DNA of 27,968 nt from IMG/VR virus record IMGVR_UViG_3300045918_000844, positions 1 to 27,968 of that record. The stretch is one strand, 5' to 3'. The position numbers and the translations under genes were made by a program. Position 1 is the stretch's first letter. The number at the start of each line of letters is the position of its first letter. Of this stretch, positions 1 to 19,261 are shown piece by piece. This stretch comes from a virus. Below the pieces are notes generated by a model, which was not told the DNA's origin, made no database searches, and saw nothing but the letters and a program-made list of their open reading frames with translations.

Positions 1-414
1 TTATTGTGCTTTGGCTATAGCATCCGTTAAATCATACTGCGCATCTTCTATGCCCTCGATAGACTTCACCATATCAGTTAGTTCATTGGTGCGGTCAATC
101 TCTGACTGCGTAGCATCGCGCGGCGGTTGCAATTGCCAACTTAAACTCGTCACAGAGCGACGACGTTTTGCCAATTCAGAAAAAATATGTGGGTCTCGCT
201 CTTCAATCAACTCAAATAACTCGGCTTGCTTAGCAATAAACCCCATATCAGCCGCCGCAAACGCACTGGCTAACCGTGCAGGGTCTAGCGTGGTTACAGA
301 GTTATAATTCATCGAGCCGCCTTGCATTGACCTAGCCCCCGTTTGAGTTTGGTCTAAGCCTTTAGGGACTAATGCGCGTAACGCCGCCACGGTTTTTTTA
401 AAACTAATCATCAT
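1..414 (-). pseudogene. Truncated Mu gp29-like (DUF935) portal protein, N-terminal part
   Basis: This frame of 137 residues looks like the beginning of a DUF935 portal protein, the ring at the head vertex through which DNA is packaged. The N-terminal half has the usual lead into 'DPHIFSELAKRRRSVTSLSW', followed by a 'LTDAIAKA' segment near the end. Portal proteins of this family normally run to about 500 residues, and the next expected residues would continue an aromatic-rich motif; instead a TAA stop follows at 3..1. It sits directly downstream of the large terminase, the normal Mu position for the portal gene. The missing three quarters could lie beyond the window after a frameshift or insertion, or may be lost. 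The family assignment is fairly firm. Calling it broken is an inference from length. Confidence 0.7.
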
Positions 415-435
415 CGTTTTCCGTATTCAGTTAAG

Positions 436-535
436 CCCTTCGACAAACACCCTTCGACAAGCTCAGGGCGAACGGCTTGGTAATTAAACCGTTCGTGGTG
501 AGCTGTGAGCCTGTCGAACAGTCGAACCATGAATG
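436..535. repeat. Interspersed TTCGACAAGCTCA-type repeat, locus 1
   Basis: The gap between the large terminase and portal genes is almost entirely made of fragments of the repeat family: CCCTTCGACAAACAC, CCTTCGACAAGCTCAGGG, then the opposite orientation CCGTTCGTGGTGAGCTG and a final TGTCGAACAGTCGAACCAT. Copies face each other, so the stretch can fold into hairpins. It lies in the untranslated gap and ends three bases before the terminase stop codon. Confidence 0.9.
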
Positions 536-537
536 GT

Positions 538-2349
538 TTAATCATCATCGTCCCACTCATCGTAAAATTGATTTCTTGCGTCATTTAATGCGTGATAATT
601 GGCTTCGTTAAGTCTGCCCATACGTTCGTTAGCCCGCAATTTTCCTGCTGCTGAGATATATTTCCACTCGCCACCAAACTCTATTGCCAACTTCCACAAC
701 ATCTCTAAAGAATCAGGGCCATCATCATGATCGGCTTCGGGGTAAAACTTTAACTGCTCAATTAACGTGCTTTGGTTATGCCCTAATCGGATCAGTCCAT
801 TATTGACGTGTGGCTGTAACGACATAATGCGCAAATTTTTATCGTTAATCGGAATAACAGGAATAGCAGGGAATGCAATGCCCTGAGCAGCACCCGCTTT
901 AATCAGCAATGAATTTAGAATGTACTGATACTGCACGCTCTCAATAGCCCAGCCTATGCAACCATATTCAATCTGTAATTCAACGGCACGGGTAATAATC
1001 AAATCGGGTACACGCCGACAAATATCAGCCTCAACAACATCTAAAATCATCGTGTTGCGATTAAATCCACCCACAAGAATTGCCGACGGATCACCCGTTG
1101 CCCCACTTGTGCCTTTTTTTCCTAATGACGGATCGACTGCACCATAAAACACCCAGTCATTTAATCGATTAACCCAAAACTGAATCGTTTTAAACGGTGC
1201 GTTCTCATCATTACCCGCTTCATTTTGATATTCTTGTGCAAACGCTTGATGATTAGTCGCCCTGATACACATCAAACGATACAGCGGGCGAATAGACCAC
1301 GACACCACTGCCCCTGCATCCATTGTGGCTTTATTTTTTTGATAAAATTCTAACGCTTCAATTTCAAACTCTGCCCGTTCATCATGATGCCCACCGTTAA
1401 GATAGTTTTCTAAATTTTGTGTTGGCAATCGGGTATAAAGAGCCTCCCACTGCTCCCACAACGCCATGTTATCGGGCATTTTCATAATCGAGCGGAACAC
1501 TTTACGCCGCCACCCTGCCGCGTTTGAAACGCGATTAATTGCCGCGTCATAATGCAGGGACGTTCCGACCCAAAACACATCCATTCCCGTCACATTTGGG
1601 TTATCAGGTTTAGAGGGTGGGGCTAAACCCAACACGGCAGACAGCACATACTTTTCAGTCTTATCACGCTGGGCTTTCTGCTTAACCTGTTCATCATTTT
1701 CTAAATCATCCAAAAAAATCAGGTCAGGACGATATGGCCCATGTTTCATACCACGGATTTTTTTGCCCGTGCCACCAATGCGTATTTTGATATTGTTAGC
1801 AGTGATTGCAGTAGCCGACTGCCACACCCGCCCTTGACCTGTGGCGTTAGGAAAATCTAATAACAGGCGCGGGTTGGTATCGAGTTCAGCTTTAATAGAC
1901 TCCAACATTTCAGCGGCTTGTTCTTCAGTGTTCATGATGATGCCAATCATGTGCTTACGCCCAGTCACGATGCACCACAAACTGCCTAACTGAGTTTCAT
2001 ACGTCGATTTAGCCTCACCACGCGGGGCGAGATGGACTTCACGCCCATCGGCATCGCCATCGATAACGTCGGGGAATCGCTTAAAAATAAACTGCTGAAA
2101 TAACGAAAAATGCGCCGTCGGCACATAATGGGGAAAATAAGTTTGGCAGAAAAATTGATAGTCCTTTTCAGTGCGCTCACGCCGTTCTCGACTAGCGATA
2201 GGATCAGGCGCAAATGCCTCACACTCCAGCTCAATAGTACGGCGAATATCCTCGCCTAAATTTGCCAGTTCCCTTTCAAACTCCCGCCACGAATGAATAT
2301 CTTTAATATCCCGTTCGTGGTGAGCTTGTCGAACCACCTCATCAGCCAT
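538..2349 (-). CDS. Terminase large subunit (Mu gp28-like)
   Basis: This is the packaging motor: an ATPase that drives DNA into the prohead plus a nuclease that cuts it. The protein has 603 residues from the ATG at 2349. An in-frame start at 2418 would add residues lying wholly inside the upstream gene. A Walker A-like 'APRGEAKST' is near residues 108-116 and a Walker B 'LIFLDDLE' near 210-217. An RNase H-like nuclease start, 'GAVDPS', is near 403-408, with further acidic residues after it. The gene overlaps the end of the small-terminase-like gene by 8 bp, so translation is probably coupled. Residues about 4-14 (VVRQAHHERD) are encoded by a copy of the interspersed repeat. This region precedes the ATPase core, so the protein may well tolerate it. 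Confidence 0.9.
   Translation of the reverse strand: MADEVVRQAHHERDIKDIHSWREFERELANLGEDIRRTIELECEAFAPDPIASRERRERTEKDYQFFCQTYFPHYVPTAHFSLFQQFIFKRFPDVIDGDADGREVHLAPRGEAKSTYETQLGSLWCIVTGRKHMIGIIMNTEEQAAEMLESIKAELDTNPRLLLDFPNATGQGRVWQSATAITANNIKIRIGGTGKKIRGMKHGPYRPDLIFLDDLENDEQVKQKAQRDKTEKYVLSAVLGLAPPSKPDNPNVTGMDVFWVGTSLHYDAAINRVSNAAGWRRKVFRSIMKMPDNMALWEQWEALYTRLPTQNLENYLNGGHHDERAEFEIEALEFYQKNKATMDAGAVVSWSIRPLYRLMCIRATNHQAFAQEYQNEAGNDENAPFKTIQFWVNRLNDWVFYGAVDPSLGKKGTSGATGDPSAILVGGFNRNTMILDVVEADICRRVPDLIITRAVELQIEYGCIGWAIESVQYQYILNSLLIKAGAAQGIAFPAIPVIPINDKNLRIMSLQPHVNNGLIRLGHNQSTLIEQLKFYPEADHDDGPDSLEMLWKLAIEFGGEWKYISAAGKLRANERMGRLNEANYHALNDARNQFYDEWDDDD
2311..2336. repeat. Interspersed repeat inside the terminase gene, locus 2
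   Basis: A single repeat copy (CCGTTCGTGGTGAGCTTGTC followed by GAACCA) forms codons about 5 to 13 of the large terminase without breaking the frame. It adds the peptide VVRQAHHER just after the start codon. Confidence 0.9.
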
Positions 2350-2836
2350 GACGTTTCCCCAAAATACCGCCGATAGCGTCAATGTGCGGATGCAGGGCGC
2401 GTAATGCAGCAGGGTCATTTTCGCGCAGATAATCGACGATAACTTTTAGCGTATCCAGAGAAATAGCCAGCCCAGAAAATGCAGGATTAATGCGAGAAAA
2501 TGCTTTACTAAACTTAGCATACGCATCCGCCAGCGTGGCTTGTAACTGCACTTTAGTCACCGCAGGTAAATCAGCGTCTTTTAATTCGCGCATGGTGGTG
2601 ACTGATTGCCGCGTGAAATCCTCAACCAGTTGCTGATTCAGTGCATCAATCCCTTGGTCACTTACTTGGTAAGCAGTCCTCGCCGTATCCCAATCATCAC
2701 CGCGCTTTTTCGCCTGTTTTTTCCAATCGCGTGAGGTATCGTAGCTCACGCCAAAGGTAATTGCCGCCGCTGTCAATGGCATACCTTCCACATACAGCCG
2801 CCGAACGTTATCGCGGGTCTCTTGAGAATGCGCCAT
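2342..2836 (-). CDS. DUF1804 protein, probable terminase small subunit (Mu gp27-like)
   Basis: This 164-residue protein fits the DUF1804 family, which in Mu-like phages sits immediately before the large terminase and is thought to recognise DNA for packaging. Its N-terminus 'MAHSQETRDNVRRLYVEG' leads into a helix-turn-helix with the sequence 'LTAAAITFGVSYDTSRDWKK'. The rest is helical and ends 'IGGILGKRHG'. I chose the ATG at 2836. A start at 2926 would add 30 residues that read through the end of the preceding gene. The ATG follows that gene's TGA by one base (TGATATG) and the 3' end overlaps the large terminase by 8 bp, so the three genes form one translationally linked unit. The assignment to the small subunit is by family and position. 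Confidence 0.82.
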   Translation of the reverse strand: MAHSQETRDNVRRLYVEGMPLTAAAITFGVSYDTSRDWKKQAKKRGDDWDTARTAYQVSDQGIDALNQQLVEDFTRQSVTTMRELKDADLPAVTKVQLQATLADAYAKFSKAFSRINPAFSGLAISLDTLKVIVDYLRENDPAALRALHPHIDAIGGILGKRHG

Positions 2837-2837
2837 A

Positions 2838-3182
2838 TCAGTTGTTAATTGCCCATTTAATAAACTCAACAGTAGCTGATATGAATGCACCAGAAATACT
2901 GCCGCCAATGATGCTGTGCTTAGCAATCGCCACGGCTTGTTTTTTGTCTGACACTTCTAAATTGCTAACGCGTCGCTCAACAAAGGTTATTTTATCTTTG
3001 ATGCTTTCTTCTAAATGAGTGATACGTTCTTGCGAACGCTCTTCAGCTTTTTTAATTTCGTCGCGTATTAATGACAGATGGTCAAATATCGAGGCAAATT
3101 GCGCCCGACTTTCACCCTGCATGTGTCCCAGCGTGTGCATGATCGTTGCTAGATCAGAATTGGGTGTTGTATTTTCAGTCAT
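2838..3182 (-). CDS. Small coiled-coil membrane protein, holin-like candidate
   Basis: I cannot name the family of this 114-residue protein. A hydrophilic helical stretch (about residues 25-85, rich in E, K, R and Q, with a heptad-like pattern) is followed by one hydrophobic segment, 'SIIGGSISGAFISATVEF', near the C-terminus, then a short tail. A single C-terminal membrane anchor and a long coiled coil suggest an inner-membrane protein with its helix in the cytoplasm or periplasm. It is the first gene after the Mor-like activator and its terminator. In Mu, lysis genes occupy the corresponding region, so a role in lysis is possible but unproven. No endolysin lies beside it. It could equally be an unrelated phage membrane protein. 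Confidence 0.6.
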   Translation of the reverse strand: MTENTTPNSDLATIMHTLGHMQGESRAQFASIFDHLSLIRDEIKKAEERSQERITHLEESIKDKITFVERRVSNLEVSDKKQAVAIAKHSIIGGSISGAFISATVEFIKWAINN

Positions 3183-3265
3183 GACGCATATCCATAAATT
3201 TTAGTATGCGCGTACTTTATAGAGGGGCTTAGCACAGTAGTAGACTAGAAACGATTCCAGCGGAC
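3183..3265 (-). promoter_or_regulatory. Possible Mor-dependent promoter for the terminase operon
   Basis: This 80-bp gap lies between the terminator after mor and the membrane-protein gene. On the minus strand it holds a -10-like TACTAA or TATAAA but no good -35 box, as expected for an activator-dependent middle or late promoter. An inverted pair CGCATA...TATGCG (about 3185-3212) flanks the last part before the start codon. Placement next to a Mor-like gene is the main argument; no binding site can be proved from sequence. Confidence 0.3.
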
Positions 3266-3266
3266 A

Positions 3267-3303
3267 TAAAAAAAGCCCTGTTGGTTTACATCAACAGGGC
3301 TTT
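3267..3303 (-). terminator. Intrinsic terminator after the mor-like gene
   Basis: A perfect 12-bp stem (AAAGCCCTGTTG at 3272-3283 and CAACAGGGCTTT at 3292-3303) with an 8-base loop is followed, on the minus strand, by a run of T (A-run at 3267-3274 on the plus strand). It would end early transcription just past mor and separate it from the packaging genes. The plus strand also has a T-rich tail, so it may work both ways. Confidence 0.85.
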
Positions 3304-3312
3304 AAATTTTTA

Positions 3313-3339
3313 ACCGCTCATGGTGAGCTTGTCGAACCA
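3313..3339. repeat. Interspersed repeat, locus 3
   Basis: One copy (CCGCTCATGGTGAGCTTGTC, then GAACCAT) fills the short space between the terminator and the stop codon of the mor-like gene. Confidence 0.85.
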
Positions 3340-3741
3340 TTAGTCATTAAACAGATCACATTGATTGCTCGGTATATCAACGCAAATATTTTGAATTTGT
3401 CTTGAGGTGAGATTGTACAGGGTTGCTAATGCGTTTAGCGACTTTTTTTGCCTAGCGGTACGAATTTCATGATTGCGAAAACTGATAAAAATTTTATCTA
3501 TTTTCGGTAGTGACAGACGATTGTCATTTGTTAAATACAACGCCAACTCAGCTCGCAGCGCGTTTAATTCATCATCGGACAAGCCCATTTTAACGCTATG
3601 ATTTTTAGGGATGGTAACGCTAGTCCCGCCGAATTTTAGTAGCAACGCCTGTGCCTTTTCTAGCCCTAACGCTCTAATAATAGCCCTTAAAACAGGCGGT
3701 AGATTTTGCAGTAGTTCACGGTAAATTTCATCTTCTTCCAT
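3340..3741 (-). CDS. mor: Mor-like middle/late transcription activator
   Basis: This 133-residue protein matches the Mor/C activator family of Mu-like phages. These proteins bind as dimers upstream of a middle or late promoter and recruit RNA polymerase where the -35 box is poor. The N-terminal dimerisation part shows the family pattern 'LPPVLRAIIRALGLEKAQAL' followed by 'FGGTSVTIPK'. The C-terminal part has the helix-turn-helix 'LNALATLYNLTSRQIQNI'. Mor is the last early gene in Mu, and here too it ends the early cluster and precedes packaging genes. Its ATG follows an AGGAA ribosome site. Unusually, intrinsic terminators lie both just upstream (3761-3787) and just downstream (3267-3303). 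Early transcripts therefore have to read through a hairpin to reach it. No second activator (C) is visible. Confidence 0.85.
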   Translation of the reverse strand: MEEDEIYRELLQNLPPVLRAIIRALGLEKAQALLLKFGGTSVTIPKNHSVKMGLSDDELNALRAELALYLTNDNRLSLPKIDKIFISFRNHEIRTARQKKSLNALATLYNLTSRQIQNICVDIPSNQCDLFND

Positions 3742-3756
3742 TGCTGATTCCTAATA

Positions 3757-3787
3757 AAAAGAAAAAGGCACATAACGCGCCTTTTTC
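3757..3787 (-). terminator. Intrinsic terminator between the early genes and mor
   Basis: A 9-bp stem, GAAAAAGGC (3761-3769) and GCCTTTTTC (3779-3787), is followed on the minus strand by TTTTTATT. It stands after the 60-aa early gene and only about 20 bases before the mor start codon. It could act as an attenuator that keeps mor expression low. Confidence 0.7.
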
Positions 3788-3801
3788 AGTGATGGTTTTA
3801 G

Positions 3802-3984
3802 TTAGTCAGGTTTTTTACAGCTTAGATGAAACTCAACTTCATCTAGCGTTTTTCTAAAAACACCTTTTTCATTATCACGCTCATGAATATCAACTAACAA
3901 ATAACCCTTTACTTCAATTAATTTAAGACCGCGCCGTTCAGCTCTATCATTAAGCTTTTTTCTTTTTGCTGAATAATCCGCCAT
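3802..3984 (-). CDS. Small basic early protein, unknown function
   Basis: The 60-residue product is strongly charged. A basic helix (KRKKLNDRAERRG) leads into a short strand-rich segment with 'LKLIEVKGYLLVDIHERD' and a C-terminus containing one cysteine. It begins five bases after the upstream gene and is the last gene before the terminator at 3761-3787. I do not recognise a family. A small nucleic-acid-binding or regulatory role would fit the charge and position, but nothing in the sequence establishes it. Confidence 0.65.
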   Translation of the reverse strand: MADYSAKRKKLNDRAERRGLKLIEVKGYLLVDIHERDNEKGVFRKTLDEVEFHLSCKKPD

Positions 3985-3989
3985 GATTC

Positions 3990-4694
3990 TTATCCCTTTT
4001 TATCAAAAAACGGAAATTCAAATCCAGCGGGGAATCCAACTGCCGACATTGACAGTGGAATGCTAAATTTGTACGGATTGCCCTCTGCATCAACGGTACT
4101 AGCCTCGATAAAATACACGGAGCGCACAGGTTTATAGGCAGCCATAATAATATTGACCCCATCAGTAAAATTAACATCGTTGAATTTAGTGGTGAGTTTT
4201 TGCAGCTCAAGGACGCGACTAGCGCGTAGATTGCCTTTTGCATCTTTTTTTAACAGTCCAAATACAATATCGACTAACTCGCCAGAGTTAGTATCACGAG
4301 CCAGTGACTGGATAAAATCAGTCACTTTTTTAACGCCTGTCGCTGCCGTATCATCCCAGCCCTCGTTAATGCGATAGCCCACGGTGATTGATGACTCATC
4401 ATCGGAAAATGTATGCGACTGTTGACTATCTTTAACGCCAAATACCTCCGCCTTGAGTTCCAATAAACCGCTGCAATAACTAAACGCCTCTGCTTTTTCT
4501 TGTGACAACAGGGCTGATAATGCTAATAATCGTTTAATAACCACTGGGACGGTTTCGGGTATCAGTTTCTTGTAGGCTTGACGTTGATCTTCTTTGCTTT
4601 GTTTTCTGGCTGCTAATAGATTTTCTAAATCTTGATCCGATAGATCACTCAATTTAAAGGTATCGTTTACGGTATTTTCTGGTTGTGTTTGCAT
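3990..4694 (-). CDS. DUF3164-like Mu-type early protein
   Basis: This 234-residue protein resembles DUF3164 proteins, found in the early region of many Mu-like phages shortly after the B gene; their function is unknown. Seen here: an N-terminal helix region (residues 1-60), a 'YCSGLLELKAEVFGV' helix, a 'SITVGYRIN' strand, and the family's typical 'DAKGNLRASRVLELQKL' stretch near residue 155-170. A closing strand segment 'SVYFIEASTVDAEGNPYKFS' follows. The gene begins four bases after its upstream neighbour, so it belongs to the same transcript as the transposase and ATPase. The DUF call rests on the order of these blocks. Confidence 0.75.
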   Translation of the reverse strand: MQTQPENTVNDTFKLSDLSDQDLENLLAARKQSKEDQRQAYKKLIPETVPVVIKRLLALSALLSQEKAEAFSYCSGLLELKAEVFGVKDSQQSHTFSDDESSITVGYRINEGWDDTAATGVKKVTDFIQSLARDTNSGELVDIVFGLLKKDAKGNLRASRVLELQKLTTKFNDVNFTDGVNIIMAAYKPVRSVYFIEASTVDAEGNPYKFSIPLSMSAVGFPAGFEFPFFDKKG

Positions 4695-4698
4695 GGGT

Positions 4699-5415: not shown

Positions 5416-5456
5416 TCATTACCTGCCATTGCGCGATCAGGTTCTTTAGTTACCAT
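5412..5456 (-). CDS. 14-aa leader frame coupled to the next gene
   Basis: A short frame, MVTKEPDRAMAGNE, begins six bases after a strong ribosome site (AAGGGG). Its TGA overlaps the ATG of the CPHC-motif gene. It could be a translational leader that delivers ribosomes to the downstream start, whose own ribosome site is weak. It is too short to be sure that it is translated. Confidence 0.35.
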   Translation of the reverse strand: MVTKEPDRAMAGNE

Positions 5457-5466
5457 CACATGCCCC

Positions 5467-6423
5467 TTAAATAGGTTGTAAACACAGAGCTGTAATAGCC
5501 ACTGAGTCAACCAGCATAATGTCTAATGCCCGACCGTTTCTAAACTCACGGATACCTGCAATCAGCCCTTCCACCAGCATTCGCGCTGACCCTTTGCAAT
5601 ACGCATACAAATGATCAATAACTGCATCCGATACATCCTCTGCACCGAAACTGGCTTGTGTTAATGCCGCTGCATCATCACGGCTAATTGATTCGATGGT
5701 TTTGGGGAAAAAGCCCACGCGGCTACGGATTTGGTCAAACTGCCCATGTTCAGGTTCGATAATGCCGCGTAAATACTCCGTGCCAGACAACACAATGCCG
5801 ATGTTGGCAATGTCACGCAAGCGGCGCAGGGTGTGTAATTGCTTAGGGGTTAGTGTTTCCGCTTCATCGATAATGATTAAGCTATCGGTATTACGCAGCG
5901 AGCTAATAATGGCTTGAAACTTGTCTTCTAAGCTGCCTTTCACTTCATAGCCTGTCACCATTCTAGCCAGCATTTTTACTAGGCTATTGACGGTCATCAT
6001 GGGCGTGGCTTCAATCAAATAAGTATTGGCATGGGACGCGGTGTAATGCTTCATGGCAAAGGTTTTGCCTGTGCCAACATACGCCGACAATACCGCAAAG
6101 TTACGATACAACCGTGCTTGAGCGCAGGTGTTTTGTGCCATCTTAAACACACCCGTTTCAACCGCAGGAATAGCATGATTAGTAACCTCATCAAGATGGC
6201 GCAGGGCAGCCATTGCTGTGGATAAAATTTTGCTGGGTGAGGTGGGATAGTTGCCTTTTAAAATCTGATTCAGCGTTGTGGGGCTAGTGCGAGCTAACCG
6301 TGCTAAGGCGGCTTGGGTGTATTTGCGTTGCTCTAACCATTTGAGAGCGTAAGCAATTAGCTCAGCATCCGCAGCAGTGTAATGGGCAGGGTAAGTTTTT
6401 TCAGTTGTGGTGGGCGTAGTCAT
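5467..6423 (-). CDS. B: MuB-like transposition ATPase
   Basis: In Mu, B is an AAA+ ATPase that coats target DNA, activates the transposase and provides target immunity. This 318-residue protein has the same plan. An N-terminal helix-turn-helix lies at about residues 34-58 ('YTQAALARLARTSPTTLNQI'). A Walker A 'YVGTGKT' is at about 115-121, a Walker B 'SLIIIDEAE' at 181-189, and a sensor-like 'GIVLSGTEYL' at about 209-218. Length and domain order match Mu B (312 residues). The gene follows the transposase by 14 bp on the same transcript. The A-B pair is the defining feature of transposable phages, so this call is firm. Confidence 0.92.
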   Translation of the reverse strand: MTTPTTTEKTYPAHYTAADAELIAYALKWLEQRKYTQAALARLARTSPTTLNQILKGNYPTSPSKILSTAMAALRHLDEVTNHAIPAVETGVFKMAQNTCAQARLYRNFAVLSAYVGTGKTFAMKHYTASHANTYLIEATPMMTVNSLVKMLARMVTGYEVKGSLEDKFQAIISSLRNTDSLIIIDEAETLTPKQLHTLRRLRDIANIGIVLSGTEYLRGIIEPEHGQFDQIRSRVGFFPKTIESISRDDAAALTQASFGAEDVSDAVIDHLYAYCKGSARMLVEGLIAGIREFRNGRALDIMLVDSVAITALCLQPI

Positions 6424-6437
6424 CGTAATCTCCTAAA

Positions 6438-8147
6438 TTAATCAAATAAATCGTAAAGTTCTTTTTTAGCAACAACTGGCGTGTCGCCAGTTAGCTCCAG
6501 TAAATTGTCAGCAATCGTGTGTCCGTCAATTAGTACACCTTTGCGCTCAATTTTTTCATCGATTTTTAGCTGTAACTTTTTAATCGCGTTCTTCGCACTA
6601 GTGGTGCGCATTTCATCCATTCGAGAAACAGGTACAACATCCATCGGGGTAATCAAATGCGCATCACATACCCAGCGACCGTCTGGCAGTCGCACGACGG
6701 CAACGCGACTGTCCGTCATGTCGTATTCCAGCATGACCTTTTGACCGTTAAACGCATATAAATCAGGGTGTTTGTATTCAAGAACGCCGTGTTTAAGCAT
6801 GGAGCGGCGCACCGTCAACAGCACCGCCCGATATTTCATTTCCAGTTCCGATGACGCGGGTTCGATGCGTACCAGCTCTTGCCAGACCTCCAAGCGGGTT
6901 TTGTTTTTTTGCTCAGGGTGTGGGCGGTTGTGATAGCGTACTAGCCACGCATCAAACGCCTCCATGAACTCAGCAACGGTCGGCGGTGTTAAGCCCTTGG
7001 TGCGTTCAATCACGCCTTTTTTCTCAGCTTTACGAAAGGCGTTAAACTCTCTAACGGATTTGTTTTTAACGTCGGCTGCCATTTCATGACCACAAAAAAA
7101 CTCAGGTCGCCAATTGCGTAGAAAATCTTCTTTTACAATTCTGAAAAAGCGTTCTATCCAGCCTTTGCCGTGCGGATTGCCAGGAATGGCATGAATGAGC
7201 GACATACCCACTCGTGAATAAAAACCTACCGTCTCATCATCAACGAAATGGTTTTTATACCCTGAACCATTATCAACATAACCGAAAACGCAAACGTGTT
7301 GATGACGATGAAATGTCTCTGCCCACATACTCTGCACTGCAAAAGCACCTTCATTTTCATCCAATCGATAACCCGCTAGGTATCGGCTTTTAACATCGAT
7401 ACACGCAGTCATTTCAGCGCGGAATAACCCGCCACTAATCGGATGCGTTAAATAGACATCGAGGCAATAACCGTCTGCGGCATAAATGTCACCTGTGCGC
7501 AGATTTTCAGTGGTGCGGCGAAGGAAACTTTGCTGGGTTAATCGCTCCAGATTCTTTCCTAACCGTGCAGGGCTGTTTTTACCCAGTTGGGCAGGGAGCG
7601 CGTTTATGTAGTCTTTGACTTGGGTGTAAGTACAGTCAAAGCCGTGTACTTCAGTGAGTAACTTATGCACGCTGGCGATTGCCACTTTTGATGGCACGTT
7701 GTATAAATCAGTGGCTAATGCCTCCCAGCCACCCTCATTCCTCACTCTGCCTTTGTATTGCGGTATCAAGGCATCAATGCCGCCATCACGGCGGTTCTTA
7801 TGCCATAAACACAAAGAGCTTTTGGACGGATAACTGGCACTACCAGCGGCACAGGCTTTTAGTGCGGCGTTGATGTGGATAGGCAATAACCCCGATTCAG
7901 CACGTCCCAACAATAAATCCACAGCGACGGTTAAAGAACCTGACACCGCCATCAATTCATTGATATAATTCAACACGATGTCGCGGTTCATTGATTTTTC
8001 CCGCGTCTTCGTGGTTGTTTTTTGCAACGCGGGTACATTGGCGTTTCTCATGACCTCAGTGCGGGTGGCTGCCCGTACTGAGGGCTTGCCATTCACGATG
8101 ACCGCTAAACCCATTGGCTGACCGCGTTTTTTTACTAAGGCGTTCAT
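6438..8147 (-). CDS. A: MuA-like DDE transposase
   Basis: This 569-residue enzyme would bind the phage ends, cut them and join them to target DNA during integration and replicative transposition. The RNase H-fold catalytic triad can be assigned: D225 in 'AADGYCLDV', D292 in 'GYVDNGSGYKN' and E332 in 'HGKGWIERFF'. A beta-barrel-like C-terminal domain follows ('GQKVMLEYDMTDSRVAVVRL', about residues 470-490). The last ~70 residues are charged, where Mu A contacts B. The N-terminal ~200 residues are probably DNA-binding domains. It is shorter than Mu A (663 residues) and looks closer to the BcepMu/Tn552-like branch. Its ATG overlaps the stop of a 44-aa frame (ATGA). Confidence 0.93.
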   Translation of the reverse strand: MNALVKKRGQPMGLAVIVNGKPSVRAATRTEVMRNANVPALQKTTTKTREKSMNRDIVLNYINELMAVSGSLTVAVDLLLGRAESGLLPIHINAALKACAAGSASYPSKSSLCLWHKNRRDGGIDALIPQYKGRVRNEGGWEALATDLYNVPSKVAIASVHKLLTEVHGFDCTYTQVKDYINALPAQLGKNSPARLGKNLERLTQQSFLRRTTENLRTGDIYAADGYCLDVYLTHPISGGLFRAEMTACIDVKSRYLAGYRLDENEGAFAVQSMWAETFHRHQHVCVFGYVDNGSGYKNHFVDDETVGFYSRVGMSLIHAIPGNPHGKGWIERFFRIVKEDFLRNWRPEFFCGHEMAADVKNKSVREFNAFRKAEKKGVIERTKGLTPPTVAEFMEAFDAWLVRYHNRPHPEQKNKTRLEVWQELVRIEPASSELEMKYRAVLLTVRRSMLKHGVLEYKHPDLYAFNGQKVMLEYDMTDSRVAVVRLPDGRWVCDAHLITPMDVVPVSRMDEMRTTSAKNAIKKLQLKIDEKIERKGVLIDGHTIADNLLELTGDTPVVAKKELYDLFD

Positions 8148-8278
8148 CGTCTTACCTTCCGTTTGAATTTCTCGCTAAAAATAATCTTCGCTATTTGCAA
8201 GGTGTCTGCATAACTGTTTTGCAAACGAAACGGCTTTAAATGACAACGCATGGCTACTGCTGATTGATTTGACTGCAT
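8144..8278 (-). CDS. 44-aa basic protein upstream of the transposase
   Basis: A complete short frame starts at the ATG at 8278 after an AGGAA ribosome site and ends in a TGA that overlaps the transposase start (ATGA). The product begins MQSNQSAVAMRCHLKPF and ends in a basic tail, KFKRKVRR. The overlap and ribosome site make it the probable translational entry point for the transposase. I recognise no family. A small DNA-binding or purely leader role are both possible. Confidence 0.55.
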   Translation of the reverse strand: MQSNQSAVAMRCHLKPFRLQNSYADTLQIAKIIFSEKFKRKVRR

Positions 8279-8302
8279 GATAATTTCCTAATGTTTTGTA
8301 AG

Positions 8303-8369
8303 CCGTTCGTGGTGAGCTTGTCGAACCACCCTTCGACTGTTCGACTAGCTCACAGCTCAGGGTGAACGG
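8303..8369. repeat. Interspersed repeat pair, locus 4
   Basis: Two facing copies (CCGTTCGTGGTGAGCTTGTC... and CCCTTCGACTGTTCGACTAG...TGAACGG) occupy the gap between the DUF3102-like gene and the 44-aa gene within the early operon. The halves can pair to form a hairpin in the early transcript between these genes. Confidence 0.9.
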
Positions 8370-8378
8370 GTAAAAGGT

Positions 8379-9698
8379 TCATTTGTTTTTATTCAACGCA
8401 CCCGCAGGGCGACCTGCACCGCGTTTGTTTTTATCATCACGCCGCGCTTCACGTCCTGTGCTTTCCACTACAAATTCATGGTCTATCATGGCTTTGCAAT
8501 CGTCTAAGCGTTCGCGCTCTTCAACGGTCAGGGCGTGCTTACCTGCTAGGGCTGGAATGCAGTCATCACCTAAGTGGTCTTGCAGGTATTGATGTAACTG
8601 TTCAATGCCTGCATAAATGCTACCGACTGCGATACCAATGGCATTAAACCGCACCGTGTTATCTTCATCCTTAGGGTCTAGGTTGTTTAAACAGTCGGTA
8701 AACTTAGCGGTCAGGGCATCGATATATACCCGCGCCCCGTACTCCAGTGCGTAGGCTTCTTCGCGGATTGCCATTGTTTGTAAGCTAAAGGCGTTAGCGG
8801 GGTTTTTTGATGCAGTCAGCTTGGTGAGTGTATGCGTAGCCACTTCGTGCTTGGCTTGCAGTTCGCCGTAGTGCTTTTCATGGTTGCTGATTTGTTTTTC
8901 TAGGCTTTGAATACGCTCGATTAACGGGGTGTTTTCAGCCTCGACTTTTGCCTTTTCAGCATTAACACGGTCTTGTATGAGCTTTTTTAGTTTTGGTGCG
9001 CTTAGGCTTTTGATTTGCTCTAAATCAATGCCGTCTATGTCGCCGCCATTGGCTAATTTTTCCAGTTCGTCATTTTCGAAGAAGGTCATTTCCAGCATTT
9101 TTTGATACTGACCAATCTCATTTGCCAAAACGGCATTAGATGCCGATTTGCCAAACGTCTCAGCAACTCGCATATAATTCCGTGCGGTGCGCTCTTTAAA
9201 GCCCATTAGCTGTACACGTTTACCAAAGTCACCATGCCCTGCTACTTCTTTTAAAATAATCAGGGCTTTGCCTGCTTCTAATGCGTCAGAAGCTGAGCGT
9301 TTGATACGAAAAACAATCTCGTCTTCTAGCGCACCGATGGTTAAATTGCCTTTGTAGTTGTATTGTTCAGCCAGTTTTGCGATAGCAAACTCTTCCATAC
9401 TAGGCAATGCCACATCTGTTCTCACCACATCCGTTCGTGCTGAGCTTGTCGAAGCATGAACGGATGACCCTTCGACAAGCTCAGGGTGAGCGGCGTGGGG
9501 TTGAACAGGGGCTTTTAAGATAATAGGCGCGGGTGACAACTGCACACCCGATTCTGCAAAGCCCACCACATCGATCAACTCCACTTGTTGTCTGTGGCTC
9601 TCAAGGTCTAGCTCTAACACAGGTCTGGCGACAACGGTGCGGGTTAAATCCAGCTCCAATAAATCATCGTGCAATTCGTCTGGTCGGTTACGCGCCAT
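8379..9698 (-). CDS. DUF3102-like early protein with a repeat-derived insert
   Basis: This 439-residue protein carries a DUF3102-type core (about residues 120-180) with 'ALEAGKALIILKEVAGHGDF' and 'FKERTARNYMRVAETFGKS'. The domain is found in phage and plasmid proteins and resembles part of ParB/KorB-type DNA-binding proteins. A coiled coil follows at about 245-290. The C-terminus is basic, with 'RGAGRPAG', an AT-hook-like motif. DNA binding is therefore likely, possibly in early regulation or host takeover, but the exact role is unknown. Residues about 69-90 ('HPELVEGSSVHASTSSARTD') are the translation of an inserted interspersed repeat pair lying in a probably disordered linker. The gene overlaps its upstream neighbour by 11 bp. 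Confidence 0.8.
   Translation of the reverse strand: MARNRPDELHDDLLELDLTRTVVARPVLELDLESHRQQVELIDVVGFAESGVQLSPAPIILKAPVQPHAAHPELVEGSSVHASTSSARTDVVRTDVALPSMEEFAIAKLAEQYNYKGNLTIGALEDEIVFRIKRSASDALEAGKALIILKEVAGHGDFGKRVQLMGFKERTARNYMRVAETFGKSASNAVLANEIGQYQKMLEMTFFENDELEKLANGGDIDGIDLEQIKSLSAPKLKKLIQDRVNAEKAKVEAENTPLIERIQSLEKQISNHEKHYGELQAKHEVATHTLTKLTASKNPANAFSLQTMAIREEAYALEYGARVYIDALTAKFTDCLNNLDPKDEDNTVRFNAIGIAVGSIYAGIEQLHQYLQDHLGDDCIPALAGKHALTVEERERLDDCKAMIDHEFVVESTGREARRDDKNKRGAGRPAGALNKNK
9431..9494. repeat. Interspersed repeat pair inside the DUF3102-like gene, locus 5
   Basis: Two facing copies (CCGTTCGTGCTGAGCTTGTC... and CCCTTCGACAAGCTCAGGG...) lie wholly inside the coding region and keep the frame open. 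They encode a PELVEGSS...STSSARTD peptide. Confidence 0.9.
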
Positions 9699-9966
9699 GA
9701 CAGTCTCCCTGTTCTGCCGCTTCCAATTGCAAACGGTAGTGATTAATTAACTGTGCAAACGCCGCGATAGCGGAGTTACAGGACACTGTTAAGGCGCGTA
9801 ACTCTTCATCAGGCGAGACCCTGCGCTGGTCACTGCTGAGATGCAGCGCGTGAGCGACTTGCTGAATGGTTTCATGTCCGTCAGTAATCGCTAAAATAAA
9901 CGCCGCAGACTCACGCAACACCTGTAAGCTTTTTACGCCTGAGTGCGTAAGGGTGTTAAGGCTCAT
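9688..9966 (-). CDS. Small early protein, unknown function
   Basis: This 92-residue, mostly helical protein is unrecognised. It has a central charged segment ('SSDQRRVSPDEELRALT') and a C-terminal helix ending near 'GDCHGA'. Its start overlaps the previous stop by four bases (ATGA) and its end overlaps the DUF3102-like gene by 11 bp. It is therefore translated as part of the early operon. It and the next gene upstream are similar in size and general pattern (helical, with a mid-protein D/S-rich turn), so they may be distant duplicates. That is only an impression. Confidence 0.65.
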   Translation of the reverse strand: MSLNTLTHSGVKSLQVLRESAAFILAITDGHETIQQVAHALHLSSDQRRVSPDEELRALTVSCNSAIAAFAQLINHYRLQLEAAEQGDCHGA

Positions 9967-10259
9967 AATTTCCCCATGCTATTGCTGTGTTGTTCATAGC
10001 TATCGGCTATCTTATTAATGTGGGTCGCTATACCGTCGCTTAGTTCGCGTAATTTACTGATCGCTTGCGCATGACTGACGCAATCACACGGGTGCGCTTC
10101 CACTTTGCTAAACAGCCGATAAGCCACTTCTGACAAACTGGCACGGTCATTGGTGATAATGAGTGTTGAGTGTAATAACGCCGTTAGCGTCAGCATGTCG
10201 TTACTGTCTTGTTGCGCTGATTGCACTAAGGCGCGTAGTGGATCAATGATTTTAGGCAT
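9963..10259 (-). CDS. Small early protein, unknown function
   Basis: This 98-residue helical protein has two cysteines in 'HPCDCVSHAQ' and no motif I can name. It starts ten bases after the Ner-like gene and ends with an ATGA overlap into the next gene. It is therefore the second gene of the early operon, where Mu-like phages keep small host-modulating or regulatory genes. Confidence 0.65.
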   Translation of the reverse strand: MPKIIDPLRALVQSAQQDSNDMLTLTALLHSTLIITNDRASLSEVAYRLFSKVEAHPCDCVSHAQAISKLRELSDGIATHINKIADSYEQHSNSMGKL

Positions 10260-10269
10260 GGTGGTTCTC

Positions 10270-10533
10270 CTAGTTGGATTGAGTGGGTTGTGATATTTCT
10301 GTGGATTTACCTAGCAATCCTTGGTAAATCTCGCTAGGGATTTTTGATGCCCTTATCACTTGGTTGCGTTGTTTCTTTGCTTTGTTACTATTTATTTCCC
10401 CGCGCAAATAACGATAAATATTGCCACTATCGATGTGTTTCTTTTTGCAGTACGCATGTAGTGAGCTTTTCTGCAATGTAAAGCCGACTTTTACAGCCGC
10501 CACTAATTGCTCATTGAGTTCAGGTTCTTGCAT
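10270..10533 (-). CDS. ner: Ner/Cro-like small DNA-binding regulator
   Basis: This 87-residue basic protein is the first gene of the early operon, starting about 55 bases downstream of the predicted early transcription start with a GGAG ribosome site. The middle region, 'SSLHAYCKKKHIDSGNIYRY' and the following 'LRGEINSNKAKKQRN', has the look of a helix-turn-helix. In Mu, Ner occupies this place and turns down both early and repressor transcription. The position supports that role. The sequence itself is not a textbook Ner, so the symbol is by position and fold only. Confidence 0.65.
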   Translation of the reverse strand: MQEPELNEQLVAAVKVGFTLQKSSLHAYCKKKHIDSGNIYRYLRGEINSNKAKKQRNQVIRASKIPSEIYQGLLGKSTEISQPTQSN

Positions 10534-10566
10534 TTATTCTCCAAAGGGTTATATTTATGCGAAAGC

Positions 10567-10585
10567 GTTACAGAATTCCTGTAAC
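10567..10585. promoter_or_regulatory. Operator 1 (19-bp dyad)
   Basis: GTTACAGAATTCCTGTAAC is an inverted repeat with 7-bp perfect arms. It lies just downstream of the expected early transcription start, where a bound repressor or Ner protein would block elongation. It shares the TTAC...GTAA frame with two further 19-bp sites 33 and 63 bp away. Confidence 0.75.
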
Positions 10586-10594
10586 TCGTGGCAA

Positions 10595-10623
10595 AGTATA
10601 TTACATGAAATGCGTAATATCAA
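10595..10623 (-). promoter_or_regulatory. Early promoter (Pe), sigma70 type
   Basis: On the minus strand, TTGATA (10623-10618) and TATACT (10600-10595) are separated by exactly 17 bp, each one or two bases from consensus. It points toward the Ner-like gene and the transposition operon. Operator 2 covers the whole spacer, so repressor binding would shut off early expression directly. Confidence 0.85.
10600..10618. promoter_or_regulatory. Operator 2 (19-bp dyad) inside the early promoter
   Basis: ATTACATGAAATGCGTAAT is an imperfect dyad spanning the spacer between the -35 and -10 boxes of the early promoter. It is centred 33 bp from operator 1 and 30 bp from operator 3, about three helical turns each, which suits cooperative binding on one DNA face. 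Confidence 0.75.
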
Positions 10624-10629
10624 TAGGAG

Positions 10630-10648
10630 ATTACATAAAATGAGTAAT
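10630..10648. promoter_or_regulatory. Operator 3 (19-bp dyad) over the repressor start codon
   Basis: ATTACATAAAATGAGTAAT is almost identical to operator 2. It touches the AGGAG ribosome site (10625-10629) and includes the ATG of the repressor gene at 10640. Binding here would limit the repressor's own expression. Confidence 0.7.
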
Positions 10649-11074
10649 AAATCAGCGAGTGATGTAATTAACAGAATACAAATTGCATTAGGCGTGAAAT
10701 CAGATAATGAGCTGTGTAGCACCCTGAGTATAGGTAGATCAACGCTAGGTGGCTGGAGAAGCAGGGATTCCGTTCCTTACGCATTATGTGTAAGCTTGGC
10801 GGAAGATAAAAAGCTATCATTAGACTGGCTTTTAACGGGCGAAGGTGAAATGTTGCGAGAAAAGCCCAGCCACTTACAAGCTGTTGCCACCCCTAAACGC
10901 CGCATCACTGACAAGGAAGGTATGCTCGAAAGGCGTGCCGAAAAAATGGCGCAACTGATGGCACAGCTCAGCGAAGAGCAGCAGAAGGAGATGTTTTTTA
11001 TTATTGAGGAAAAGTGCGAATTTAATCAGTTGAAACACAAGGTTCAGGAATTAGAGCAACGGGCGACGGGTTAA
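10640..11074 (+). CDS. c: CI-type lysogeny repressor without protease domain
   Basis: This 144-residue repressor would keep the prophage silent by binding the three operators beside its start. The N-terminal 70 residues match the Bac_CI_repr-type helix-turn-helix: 'DVINRIQIALGVKSDNEL', then 'LSIGRSTLGGWRSRDSVP' and 'LSLDWLLTGEGEML'. The C-terminal half is a charged coiled coil ('LERRAEKMAQLMAQLSEEQQ'), probably for oligomerisation. It has no S24 autocleavage domain, so RecA-triggered induction of the lambda kind is unlikely. I chose ATG 10640, which has AGGAG ten bases upstream. An earlier in-frame ATG at 10421 would read through the promoter and the opposite gene. It diverges from the early operon, as in many Mu-like phages. 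Confidence 0.85.
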   Translation: MSNKSASDVINRIQIALGVKSDNELCSTLSIGRSTLGGWRSRDSVPYALCVSLAEDKKLSLDWLLTGEGEMLREKPSHLQAVATPKRRITDKEGMLERRAEKMAQLMAQLSEEQQKEMFFIIEEKCEFNQLKHKVQELEQRATG

Positions 11075-11079
11075 GTAGC

Positions 11080-11736
11080 GTGAAAATAAAATTAATGGTT
11101 TTTATGCTTTCTATAATGATGCCCGTTGCATCGTGGGCTACCGAGTGGACAGGTACAGTTGTTGGGATTTCTGACGGTGATACGGTAACAGTGCTAAACA
11201 CTGAAAAAAGACAGGTTAAAATTCGCCTTACTGAAATTGATGCACCTGAATCCAAGCAAGCTTTTGGCGCACAATCTAAACAGTCACTAACTGAGCTTTG
11301 TTTTAAAAAAACAGTAGTTGTCATAGACAATGGCACTGATAAATATAAACGCACACTGGGAAGAATTCGCTGTGATGGTGTTGATGCCAATGCAGAGCAA
11401 GTAAAACGAGGGATGGCGTGGGCGTATCGGCAATATCTCACCGATCAATCAATTGCTAGTTTTGAAGATATCGCAAAAGCTGAAAAGTTAGGCTTATGGG
11501 CAGATAATGAACCTATGCCGCCTTGGGAGTTTAGGCATGGGGGTAAAGCGATTAAAGCTAAGGCTGATGTAAAAAGTAACAGTACCTCATCAAGCAGTCA
11601 TTTAGAATGCGCTGGAAAGTCAATGTGCAAAGATATGAGCAATTGTGCAGAGGCTAACTTTTATCTAAATGAATGCGGCGTGAAGCGACTAGACCGCGAC
11701 CATGACGGCATACCCTGCGAATCGCTTTGTAAGTAA
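11080..11736 (+). CDS. Secreted SNase-type nuclease with Excalibur domain
   Basis: The 218-residue product starts with a signal peptide (basic MKIK, hydrophobic core, probable cut after 'ASWA' near residue 20). A staphylococcal-nuclease domain follows (about 22-140). Its key positions are visible: D32/D34 in 'SDGDTV', R49, D54 and E57 in 'IRLTEIDAPE', and R91 in 'YKRTLG'. After an S-rich linker comes a C-terminal Excalibur-type calcium-binding module (about 177-217) with paired cysteines and 'DRDHDGIPCE'. It probably cuts DNA or RNA outside the cytoplasm. The gene starts at a GTG six bases after the repressor stop, so it is probably expressed in the lysogen as a cargo gene. An ATG at 11095 is an alternative start but would trim the basic N-terminus. 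Confidence 0.88.
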   Translation: MKIKLMVFMLSIMMPVASWATEWTGTVVGISDGDTVTVLNTEKRQVKIRLTEIDAPESKQAFGAQSKQSLTELCFKKTVVVIDNGTDKYKRTLGRIRCDGVDANAEQVKRGMAWAYRQYLTDQSIASFEDIAKAEKLGLWADNEPMPPWEFRHGGKAIKAKADVKSNSTSSSSHLECAGKSMCKDMSNCAEANFYLNECGVKRLDRDHDGIPCESLCK

Positions 11737-11780
11737 TGATAGAATGCTATTTTGCAAAGCAAACAATAAAATAGGTATTT

Positions 11781-12014
11781 ATGAAAGTATTCGTGTCGAT
11801 TATATGTATTTTATTTGGACTTTGGTGTGGCTTATATGTGTTTTTTACACACGATTACCAATCTTTACTCACTGGTTTTTTTGTATTAATGACGATCATC
11901 ATAATCAAATCATTAGATACTGTAATTAATAATACCTTTGCGATTAATCAATCGCTAGCAAAGGTGATTGAGCTATTAGAAAAAGAAAAGACAACTATCA
12001 ACAATGAAACGTAA
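11781..12014 (+). CDS. Small membrane protein with two membrane segments
   Basis: This 77-residue protein has two hydrophobic helices, about residues 3-22 ('VFVSIICILFGLWCGLYVFF') and 28-44 ('SLLTGFFVLMTIIIIKS'), and a hydrophilic helical tail ending 'LEKEKTTINNET'. The hairpin topology would leave both ends on the cytoplasmic side or both outside. It follows the secreted nuclease by 44 bp with an AGG ribosome site. No family is recognised. Expression from the lysogen is likely by position. Superinfection exclusion or immunity to the neighbouring nuclease are guesses only. Confidence 0.6.
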   Translation: MKVFVSIICILFGLWCGLYVFFTHDYQSLLTGFFVLMTIIIIKSLDTVINNTFAINQSLAKVIELLEKEKTTINNET

Positions 12015-12020
12015 TAACCC

Positions 12021-12509
12021 ATGACAGAAGCAAAAAACCTACAGCTTGCGGTGGCTTTTTTTGAACAGCGGTTGGGTCAGCCGATAACTGAATTAGAACC
12101 TGTGTCGGGTTTGCAATTAGCAGAGCTATTGTTTCTGCTGAATGATGTGTTTAAGCCACATATTCATCAACTCTGTACGCTACCTTATGCGGCTCGTTTT
12201 GAAGCACAAGCCGATAAGGCGATAGAAGATTTTGTTTATCAAGCCTCTCCTACTGTATGGGATAACTTATCGCCCAGTGTGTGGCGGGTATTGTTAGAAC
12301 GCCATCAACAACTTTTGCTGGTCGCGCACATGAATAAGCAGACAAACAAGCCTGTTACGTCGTTACCTGTGGGTTTACCAAAAGACGCTCGATTAGCGGG
12401 TGTAATGTTGCTTCTGTTTCATTCCATGACGCTCCCGTTGCCAATAAGTGATTTAAGGTCTGTCGAATTTCCTGATACGCTGCTACAGGGGTCGCTATTG
12501 CGACACTAA
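12021..12509 (+). CDS. Unknown protein, C-terminus doubtful
   Basis: This 162-residue frame is unrecognised. Residues 1 to about 112 look like real helical coding sequence (e.g. 'VAFFEQRLGQPITELEPVSG'). The last ~50 residues overlap, in antisense, a minus-strand frame that resembles a phage head protein. The abrupt hydrophobic end 'VMLLLFHSMTLPLP' therefore looks like accidental read-through. A recombination joint near 12350 could have cut the original 3' end. It begins six bases after the membrane-protein gene but has no clear ribosome site. Confidence 0.5.
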   Translation: MTEAKNLQLAVAFFEQRLGQPITELEPVSGLQLAELLFLLNDVFKPHIHQLCTLPYAARFEAQADKAIEDFVYQASPTVWDNLSPSVWRVLLERHQQLLLVAHMNKQTNKPVTSLPVGLPKDARLAGVMLLLFHSMTLPLPISDLRSVEFPDTLLQGSLLRH

Positions 12510-12555
12510 ACGCATGGGCGTGTTGGGCTTGATAATAGGCTATTAGATTATTCAT
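12355..12555 (-). pseudogene. Fragment resembling Mu gpF / SPP1 gp7 head-morphogenesis protein
   Basis: The 66-residue frame contains 'HAHAFSVAIA' followed by 'ATGASWNETEATLHPLI'. This closely follows the pattern of the central part of phage minor head proteins (HAFxVA, then a short helix and G-xSxxxFxxxLxPL). Those proteins usually have several hundred residues and lie between portal and protease. Here only this piece is present, on the minus strand, with stop codons on both sides, although AAGGAA stands in front of its ATG. It overlaps the plus-strand unknown gene by 155 bp. The resemblance is from memory of the motif, so the assignment is tentative. It could instead be an unrelated small gene. 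Confidence 0.4.
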
Positions 12556-12692
12556 TGTTTATTCCTTGGTTAGTAAGTATTGCAAAGTTCACCGCATCTA
12601 TTCGTTTAAACCCCGCCAACAACCCACACAACCCCATTTAAAAAACGCGCTAGCTGTTTTTCTATACCAACGCCTACGTTATCGATAGAAAG

Positions 12693-12714
12693 CCCTTAAA
12701 CGCGCTCATATTGA
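12693..12714. repeat. 22-bp direct repeat, copy 1
   Basis: Begins CCCTTAAACG and ends CTCATATTGA. It matches copy 2 at 19 of 22 positions. Its length equals that of Mu A-protein binding sites. A weaker partial match (AAACGCGCT) lies at 12643-12651. Confidence 0.7.
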
Positions 12715-12825
12715 TTTATCTCATCGTATCTATTCATCAAAATATATCCATAGACGATTTTTAAATGGGGTTTAAATGGGGGTTAATCGGCTATTCATGC
12801 CAGCAGTTGCCTTATTGACAAGAAA

Positions 12826-12847
12826 CCCTAAAACGTACTCATATTGA
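12826..12847. repeat. 22-bp direct repeat, copy 2
   Basis: Begins CCCTAAAACG and ends CTCATATTGA, 133 bp after copy 1 and in the same orientation. It lies close to the -35-like box at 12860. Confidence 0.7.
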
Positions 12848-12859
12848 AATCCTTGCTAG

Positions 12860-12888
12860 TTGACAGTGATTGATAAAGTCAGTAGTTT
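12860..12888 (+). promoter_or_regulatory. Possible promoter for the head-tail operon
   Basis: TTGACA (12860-12865) and TAGTTT (12883-12888) are 17 bp apart. The -35 is perfect and the -10 weak. It is the best candidate to drive the plus-strand structural operon, which cannot be reached from the minus-strand promoter near mor. A late activator might substitute for the weak -10. Confidence 0.4.
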
Positions 12889-12986
12889 AAAAAAGACTAG
12901 CGTCTCACACAAAGTAGAAACGTTTCCCTGCCTGTTTTACCCGCTGTAATCCCTGACAATACAGCTACTGATTTTTTGAGGTAGCT

Positions 12987-13973
12987 ATGACCACACCCAC
13001 CCAACCTAAACCCGCTGATATTAAAGCGACCGTCGCGCTGACCTTTGAGATTACTGCAAATGCAGACGGCACTGTGCCTACCGAGGCACATCTACTGCCC
13101 AGCGGATATTTTCGTGCTACTGACGGTCGCCCGTATTGTTGTGCTGCGTGGTTTATTGATGCCGCTGTTGCTGCACAAGTTATTGCCCGCATGGCAGCAA
13201 AGAAAAACGACACGATGTTTGATTTTGAACATCAAAGTCTTTATGCCGATGACAACGACGGTCTGCCAACACCTGCTGCGGGCTGGTTTCATGCCCTTGA
13301 ATGGCGTGAAACAGGGTTGTACGCCATCAATATCGACTGGGTAGAAGACACCAAGCCGTTAATCCTTTCTAAAAAAATCCGCTATATCAGTGCAGTGTTT
13401 TCCTATTACGAAGGCACTGGCGAGGTGCTAGAGATTCTCTCTGTTGCCCTAACCAATTCACCCGCGCTCGACGGGCTTGATGCCCTCGCCGCATTATCCA
13501 AACGTTTTTCCTCACTCACTACAGACAAAGGTACAACTATGCCCGATCCACAGGTAGCGGTCTTAACCGCTGAACGCGATACCCTAAAAACTCAAGCGGT
13601 GGCGTTGACCGCTGAACGTGATGAGCTAAAAACCGCAAACACCGCATTGACAGCAAAAGTTGCGGAGTTAGAGCAAGAAAAAGTAGCTACGGCGGTCGCC
13701 AGTGAACAGCAACAATGTGCTGATTTATTACAAGCGGCGTTGACAACGGGTAAAGTCAGACCGAGCGCGAAGGCGTATTTGTCTACGATAATCGATATAG
13801 CTAGATTAAAAGAGGCGATAGATTGTTTTGGTGATACTAAAGACGCGCTATTAACTAAACAACACACCAAAGACGCAACAACTGGCAATCATGGGCTAAC
13901 TGAAACTGAAATAGCCATGTGTACCAAAATGGGCGTTACCCCTGAAAACTACCTGAAAACCAAGGAGGCATAA
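12987..13973 (+). CDS. Prohead protease with C-terminal scaffold (Mu gpI-like)
   Basis: This 328-residue protein matches the Mu I protease family. The N-terminal protease part (1 to about 170) has 'LLPSGYFRATDGRPY', a 'MFDFEHQSLYADDNDGLP' segment with the likely catalytic histidine, 'PAAGWFHALEWRETGLYA' and 'RYISAVFSYYEGTGEV'. It ends 'LTNSPALDGLDALAAL'. The C-terminal part is a coiled-coil scaffold (about 190-232, two 'LTAERD' repeats) that would be cleaved as the capsid matures. An internal ATG at 13539 would make the scaffold alone. A GAGG ribosome site precedes the start. This is the first gene of the plus-strand structural operon. In Mu it would follow F and G, which are missing here. 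Confidence 0.9.
   Translation: MTTPTQPKPADIKATVALTFEITANADGTVPTEAHLLPSGYFRATDGRPYCCAAWFIDAAVAAQVIARMAAKKNDTMFDFEHQSLYADDNDGLPTPAAGWFHALEWRETGLYAINIDWVEDTKPLILSKKIRYISAVFSYYEGTGEVLEILSVALTNSPALDGLDALAALSKRFSSLTTDKGTTMPDPQVAVLTAERDTLKTQAVALTAERDELKTANTALTAKVAELEQEKVATAVASEQQQCADLLQAALTTGKVRPSAKAYLSTIIDIARLKEAIDCFGDTKDALLTKQHTKDATTGNHGLTETEIAMCTKMGVTPENYLKTKEA
13539..13973 (+). CDS. Nested scaffold protein (Mu gpZ-like internal start)
   Basis: In frame with the protease gene, Met185 (ATG at 13539) has its own ribosome site, AAAGG, about seven bases upstream. A 144-residue product beginning 'MPDPQVAVLTAERD' would contain only the coiled-coil scaffold and C-terminal tail. Mu makes its scaffold Z in this way from the I gene. 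That the start is used is inferred. Confidence 0.65.
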   Translation: MPDPQVAVLTAERDTLKTQAVALTAERDELKTANTALTAKVAELEQEKVATAVASEQQQCADLLQAALTTGKVRPSAKAYLSTIIDIARLKEAIDCFGDTKDALLTKQHTKDATTGNHGLTETEIAMCTKMGVTPENYLKTKEA

Positions 13974-16189: not shown

Positions 16190-16279
16190 CCCTTCGACTG
16201 TTCGACAAGCTCACAGCGAACGTTATCCGTTCATGGTGACTGTGAGTTTATCGAACAGTCGAACCACGAACCACGAACC
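16190..16279. repeat. Interspersed repeats forming a hairpin before the sheath gene, locus 7
   Basis: Facing copies create a 19-bp inverted repeat with two mismatches (CTGTTCGACAAGCTCACAG at 16198-16216 and CTGTGAGTTTATCGAACAG at 16240-16258), then three short GAACCAC iterations. It fills the gap where gp38 would be expected. The mRNA would fold strongly here between connector and sheath genes. Confidence 0.88.
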
Positions 16280-16294
16280 ACAGAGAGTTTACAC

Positions 16295-17797: not shown

Positions 17798-17805
17798 GAC
17801 ATATT

Positions 17806-18565: not shown

Positions 18566-18568
18566 TGG

Positions 18569-18790: not shown

Positions 18791-18806
18791 TCGTAAACAG
18801 ATTAAC

Positions 18807-19259: not shown

Positions 19260-19261
19260 CC

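Follow-up and report, generated by a model that had tools for sequence, protein, structure and literature searches.

Gene order in transposable phages has been described as strongly conserved and linked to timed expression (PMC8705779). In the window analysed here, which is the whole of IMG/VR virus record IMGVR_UViG_3300045918_000844 (27,968 bp, a provirus), the early genes, the terminase and the beginning of the portal gene are on one strand, and the protease, capsid and tail genes are on the other strand, beyond the repressor. This raises the question of whether we observe a disrupted Mu-like genome, the contact of two prophages, or a layout shared with other phages. The packaging and early side of the window comprises the following features.

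1..414, minus strand: the first ~134 codons of the portal gene, then a junction and a stop codon at the record edge (Portal_Mu, 8e-11)
538..2418, minus strand: terminase large subunit (PHROG 38, 1.5e-103; 63-74% identity to relatives in GTDB genomes)
2342..2926, minus strand: DUF1804, a predicted terminase small subunit-like DNA-binding protein (PF08822, 4e-42)
2838..3182, minus strand: gp2838, a small gene heading the packaging arm, with homologues upstream of DUF1804 in relatives
3272..3303: terminator-like strong two-way hairpin between mor and the packaging arm
3340..3741, minus strand: Mor-type transcription activator (PF08765, 1.6e-8)
5467..6423, minus strand: MuB-like transposition ATPase (PHROG 296, 2e-61)
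6438..8147, minus strand: MuA-like transposase (PHROG 310, 5e-78; the best isolate match is KS10, 37%)

The repressor and capsid/tail side is organised as follows.

10421-11074 (ORF), plus strand: CI-type repressor, with an uncertain start at about 10571-10640 (PF07022, 1e-18)
11080..11736, plus strand: predicted thermonuclease-like secreted protein (SNase and Excalibur), with homologues beside the repressor in relatives and in phage TJ1
12021..12509, plus strand: conserved hypothetical gene of the repressor-side module (41% identity to the repressor-adjacent gene in L163/L215)
12355..12555, minus strand: small gene resembling the N-terminal part of F (PHROG 220, E=2.5e-4), antisense to the 3' end of 12021-12509
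12556..12986: junction zone, the right part of which looks like a native protease promoter region (palindrome copy at 12916-12927, as upstream of the protease in relatives)
12987..13973, plus strand: head maturation protease/scaffold (PF10123, Mu-like_Pro, 1e-57)
13973..14884, plus strand: major capsid protein gpT (PF10124, 3e-99)
15222..27968, plus strand: head-tail connectors, sheath (16295-17797), tube, tape measure, baseplate and tail fibre (27042-27968), by PHROG matches and in the same order as in relatives

The PHROG 310 and 296 matches extend over most of each protein, as for a MuA-like DDE transposase and a MuB-like ATPase, and PF08765, PF10123 and PF10124 score above the cut-off for the Mor/C-type activator, the gpI-type protease and the gpT-type capsid. 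Open reading frames and family scans confirm the strand map of the first-pass annotation, with the portal start, terminase, mor, B and A on the minus strand and the repressor, protease, capsid and tail on the plus strand. We consider it probable that the window is one Mu-like/KS10-type transposable prophage in a bacterial genome, in which the early and repressor block was turned by an inversion and now faces the packaging arm; the order itself is known from one assembled metagenomic record, from the assembly alone.

The first-pass annotation regarded the gene order as broken between portal and protease. As worded, this finds no support: the split in itself is no break, since KS10, TJ1 and most relatives normally have it, and relatives with such a divergent order were what the annotation had named as refuting this part. 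In Burkholderia phage KS10 (NC_011216), the isolate closest to the window by transposase, the packaging genes (F, portal, terminase) are opposite to protease-capsid-tail with the repressor between them, as in the window. In 2008, the authors of the KS10 description regarded its divided head module as unique (PMC2628397), and a later paper gave two oppositely transcribed arms as the B3 organisation (PMC8705779). Curvibacter phage TJ1 (MH766655) has the KS10 layout and, like the window, a thermonuclease-like gene beside the repressor; its early block is oriented as in KS10, and its packaging arm, unlike that of the window, is complete.

A terminase search of GTDB genomes yielded 21 relatives, and the surrounding DNA was examined for ten. 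In all ten host-genome prophages, tail-capsid-protease shares its strand with mor-B-A, and DUF1804-terminase is on the opposite strand. The packaging strand continues into portal-F-G in nine of the ten (those with a sufficiently long contig), and host genes come after G where this region was looked at. Four of these prophages, 36.8-39.3 kb in size, share the ends AGTAAAGCG...TCCCTACT and are flanked by matching 5-bp target duplications, and thus are complete elements. The layout of the host-genome prophages coincides with that of KS10 and TJ1, except for the place of some small head genes. Hence, terminase-portal-F (usually with G) is opposed to protease-capsid-tail, with the repressor between them, in KS10, TJ1, the ten prophages and dozens of contigs, and from the relatives gathered this layout seems to be widespread across hosts from the Beta- and Gammaproteobacteria.

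A third, co-directional layout was observed in contigs L024, L020, L025, L239, L241, L250, L257, L159 and L169, where protease-capsid...chaperone runs into DUF1804-terminase-portal-F. This group includes several insect-gut-like MAG fragments, and in L159/L169 baseplate genes precede A. In L245:1-14216, the capsid-tail and packaging arms diverge, and the region between them has no match to A, B, mor or protease.

What distinguishes the window is the orientation of its early block. Like KS10, it has the packaging genes and protease-capsid-tail on opposite strands around the repressor; in KS10, however, A, B and mor share the strand of protease-capsid and the repressor is on the packaging strand, whereas in the window these three genes are on the terminase-portal strand and the repressor, too, is turned round. 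Thus, the sole departure from the KS10 layout is the inversion of the early block (A...mor with the repressor), so that mor leads into terminase-portal as in Mu. In Mu and Pseudomonas phage DMS3, A-B...mor-terminase-portal follow in one direction, as they do in the window, but there F, G, protease, capsid and tail follow on in that direction as well, while in the window the genes from protease to tail lie beyond the repressor and are reversed. The split was already known from KS10 and TJ1; its combination with this early-block orientation is the unusual part.

When the genome is treated as four blocks, the inversion distance is 1 between the window and Mu, 1 between the window and KS10, and 2 between Mu and KS10, the window order being one of two possible one-inversion midpoints between the Mu and KS10 layouts. 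A census of clade members found through the capsid, transposase, terminase and sheath gave, among sequence clusters with all three markers, 21 with A on the capsid strand and opposite to the terminase, one with the full Mu order, and none with the window order. No other contig with the window order was found via the capsid, transposase, terminase, sheath, MuB or the 12021 gene. Single-sequence searches with the protease and transposase retrieved no close viral contigs, and viral relatives were recovered by profile searches. Together, the relatives gathered suggest that the layouts interconvert by whole-block inversion. The window would be a single example of a step between them, which makes the change of late-gene order in these phages testable.

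If the two halves of the window belonged to unrelated prophages, their genes would be expected to have different closest relatives. Seven gene trees, for genes on either side of the junction, all give the window one and the same sister, contig 3300022240_000009 (L259/L052), which has an unbroken Mu order. The SH-aLRT values for this pair are 81 for the terminase, 91 for the portal start, 95 for DUF1804 and 98 for B, and 98, 96 and 100 for the protease, capsid and sheath, respectively; the mor tree, not included in the seven, does not resolve the sister of the window. The order A-B-g3990-mor-gp2838-DUF1804-terminase-portal in the sister is as in the window, but F, G, lysis and then protease-capsid-tail follow on the same strand; the contig ends before the repressor. 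A record from another metagenome, ~90% identical to the sister, has the same lysis-protease junction. The raw identities form a mosaic, with the terminase, tube and connectors closer to KS10-type phages than to 3300022240_000009, and in the terminase tree the window and its sister are nested inside the KS10-type phages.

These trees bear on the possibility that two transposable prophages, each partly deleted, abut back to back. Such phages integrate almost anywhere, and the strand switch at 12,355-12,987 would then be the seam. The same sister for the left and right halves, however, argues against two unrelated prophages and supports one genome. Moreover, no second copy of a head or early gene was seen among family hits in the window, in agreement with the first-pass annotation, and no phage end of the relatives' type (TTGAATTCCGGACA, up to 3 mismatches) was found anywhere in the window, the junction included. 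With the shared affinity and no phage-end motif, two abutting prophages become improbable, two copies of one phage being the variant that stands. The single genome with an inversion, also proposed initially, is strengthened by the seven trees and by the distance of one inversion from Mu, but needs correction in that the split itself is no break and the unusual element is the orientation of the early block.

We also considered whether two parts of one prophage could have been joined in the wrong orientation by the assembler. The order comes from a single metagenomic record, and the region contains interspersed repeats: a REP-like family (GTTCGACAAGCTCA...) has many copies inside the prophage (440-534, 2296-2338, 3311-3345, 8292-8374, 9416-9508, 15068-15158, 16193-16270, 18549-18803 and 24977-25027), three of which are translated in frame, in the terminase, the 8379-9698 gene and the 14869-15222 gene. 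Among the repeat pairs listed, though, none falls in 12,556-12,986, and the repeats nearest the other edge also lie away from the break, so a misassembly seems unlikely. Repeats of one family are present in both halves of the window (8300-8338 and 18613-18651 are 97% identical), which places both halves in one host genome. Inverted repeats flanking the early block were considered as the cause of the inversion and rejected: there are many repeats, but none of those listed is in 12,556-12,986. No other contig carrying the same junction was found, and a DNA search of phage records with 12,000-13,000 gave no match. Upstream of the protease, the junction zone contains a near-identical direct repeat pair, 12690-12715 and 12828-12850 (CCTTAAACGCGCTCATATTGA and CCTAAAACGTACTCATATTGA), possibly protein-binding sites.

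The single rearranged prophage, which we prefer, still has to account for the incomplete packaging arm. In-frame stop codons sit exactly at both ends of the record (1-3 and 27966-27968), suggesting that it was trimmed to gene limits; hence, the left edge through the portal gene is no plain contig end. The record stops before both phage ends. In the alignment, the portal agrees with every relative as far as DLTDAI; AKAQ-stop follows in place of the GKG of the relatives, and the homology ends ~13 bp inside the left record edge. Thus, judged by this alignment, the portal gene is broken at codon ~134, inside the record. The 27,968-bp record showed no full F, no G and no lysis genes. The first-pass annotation, in the reading it held to be simpler, took the portal C-terminus, F and G to have been lost, but as the record was trimmed at the portal stop, such a loss does not follow.

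There are two finer versions of the history. If the ancestor had the Mu order, an inversion of the segment from the portal start to the repressor side module, together with a deletion of the portal C-terminus, F, G and lysis genes, would have yielded a damaged prophage rather than a working layout. In its favour, the sister carries the missing genes as one uninterrupted series (portal-F-G-endolysin-holin-protease), genes from either half of the window have this contig as their sister, and the portal breaks off at the record edge, where inverting the Mu order would place the left phage end with host DNA after it. The number of missing genes also favours this version, which is plausible but falls short of even odds: it needs two events, and, given the nesting of the window and its sister among KS10-type phages in the terminase tree, the Mu order of the sister may itself derive via the window order.

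Vice versa, if an intermediate order between KS10 and Mu was retained, the portal alone would have been interrupted, by an insertion or a terminal deletion; the remainder of the packaging arm would be outside the record or have been lost with the end. The midpoint position of the window order agrees with this. If the KS10 order is ancestral in the clade, two inversions explain the three layouts, compared to three by the other route, and terminase-tree parsimony then slightly favours the retained intermediate over the inversion with deletion; KS10-type relatives also have the 12021 and 12355-12555 genes bordering the repressor module. On the other hand, no intact example was found among the contigs searched, the ancestral state is not firmly rooted, and the lysis genes need to be accounted for as well. 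We regard this version as a tentative one. The long branch of the sister and the mosaic of raw identities limit both versions.

A way in which such block inversions could be tolerated is suggested by a 12-bp palindrome, GGAAACRTTTCC. In relatives, its sites are inside gp25 and ahead of the protease, the tape measure and the lysis/packaging arm; of the four genomes tested, three have four copies and one has two (shuffles, 0-1). In the window, degenerate copies are present at the four matching places (3247, 12916, 18850 and 25361); by count they do not exceed chance expectation, and the evidence lies in their position. The copy before the packaging arm is the following.

3247..3258: degenerate GGAAACRTTTCC, candidate late-promoter box, with 2 mismatches, at the position of the box before gp2838 in the Mu-order sister

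The palindrome is a putative late-promoter box for Mor, as far as motif and position indicate. The genome would then consist of four separately transcribed blocks, that is, the packaging arm (gp2838-DUF1804-terminase-portal...), the early block (A-B...mor), the repressor side module and protease-capsid-tail. With each block presumably being its own transcription unit, inversion of a whole block would be tolerated, and with an activator-type box on each arm the late genes could be switched on by Mor in either orientation. An inversion would have brought the early and repressor block into its present orientation towards the packaging arm (-packaging, -early, +repressor, +capsid/tail); which inversion occurred, and at what time, we infer. 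A second, independent event, an insertion or a deletion, would have broken the portal at codon ~134, which is also where the provirus record was trimmed, and the prophage is probably defective now. It is conceivable, although we would not put it higher, that the window preserves an intermediate order in the conversion between the divergent head arms of KS10 and the single late direction of Mu, enabled by a Mor-type box on each arm.

The small gene at 12355-12555 (66 aa) was considered as a broken F beside the protease and rejected, as stand-alone homologues in L176 and L212 indicate a separate small gene and not the missing F. The antisense overlapping pair 12021-12509 (plus) and 12355-12555 (minus) is conserved: it recurs in L212, and each partner is found elsewhere in relatives. 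Internal pieces of F (HMM positions ~100-200 or 307-409) match short ORFs between the repressor and the packaging arm in KS10-type relatives (L163:6704-7742, L146:6588-7022, L041:9883-10362 and L043:10920-11402), possibly stand-alone MuF-domain genes. Finally, in L235 (G at 885-1412 and 11864-12382) and in L212 (3476-4003), a copy of the G gene lies beyond the packaging arm on the reverse strand; in L235 this is a second copy.
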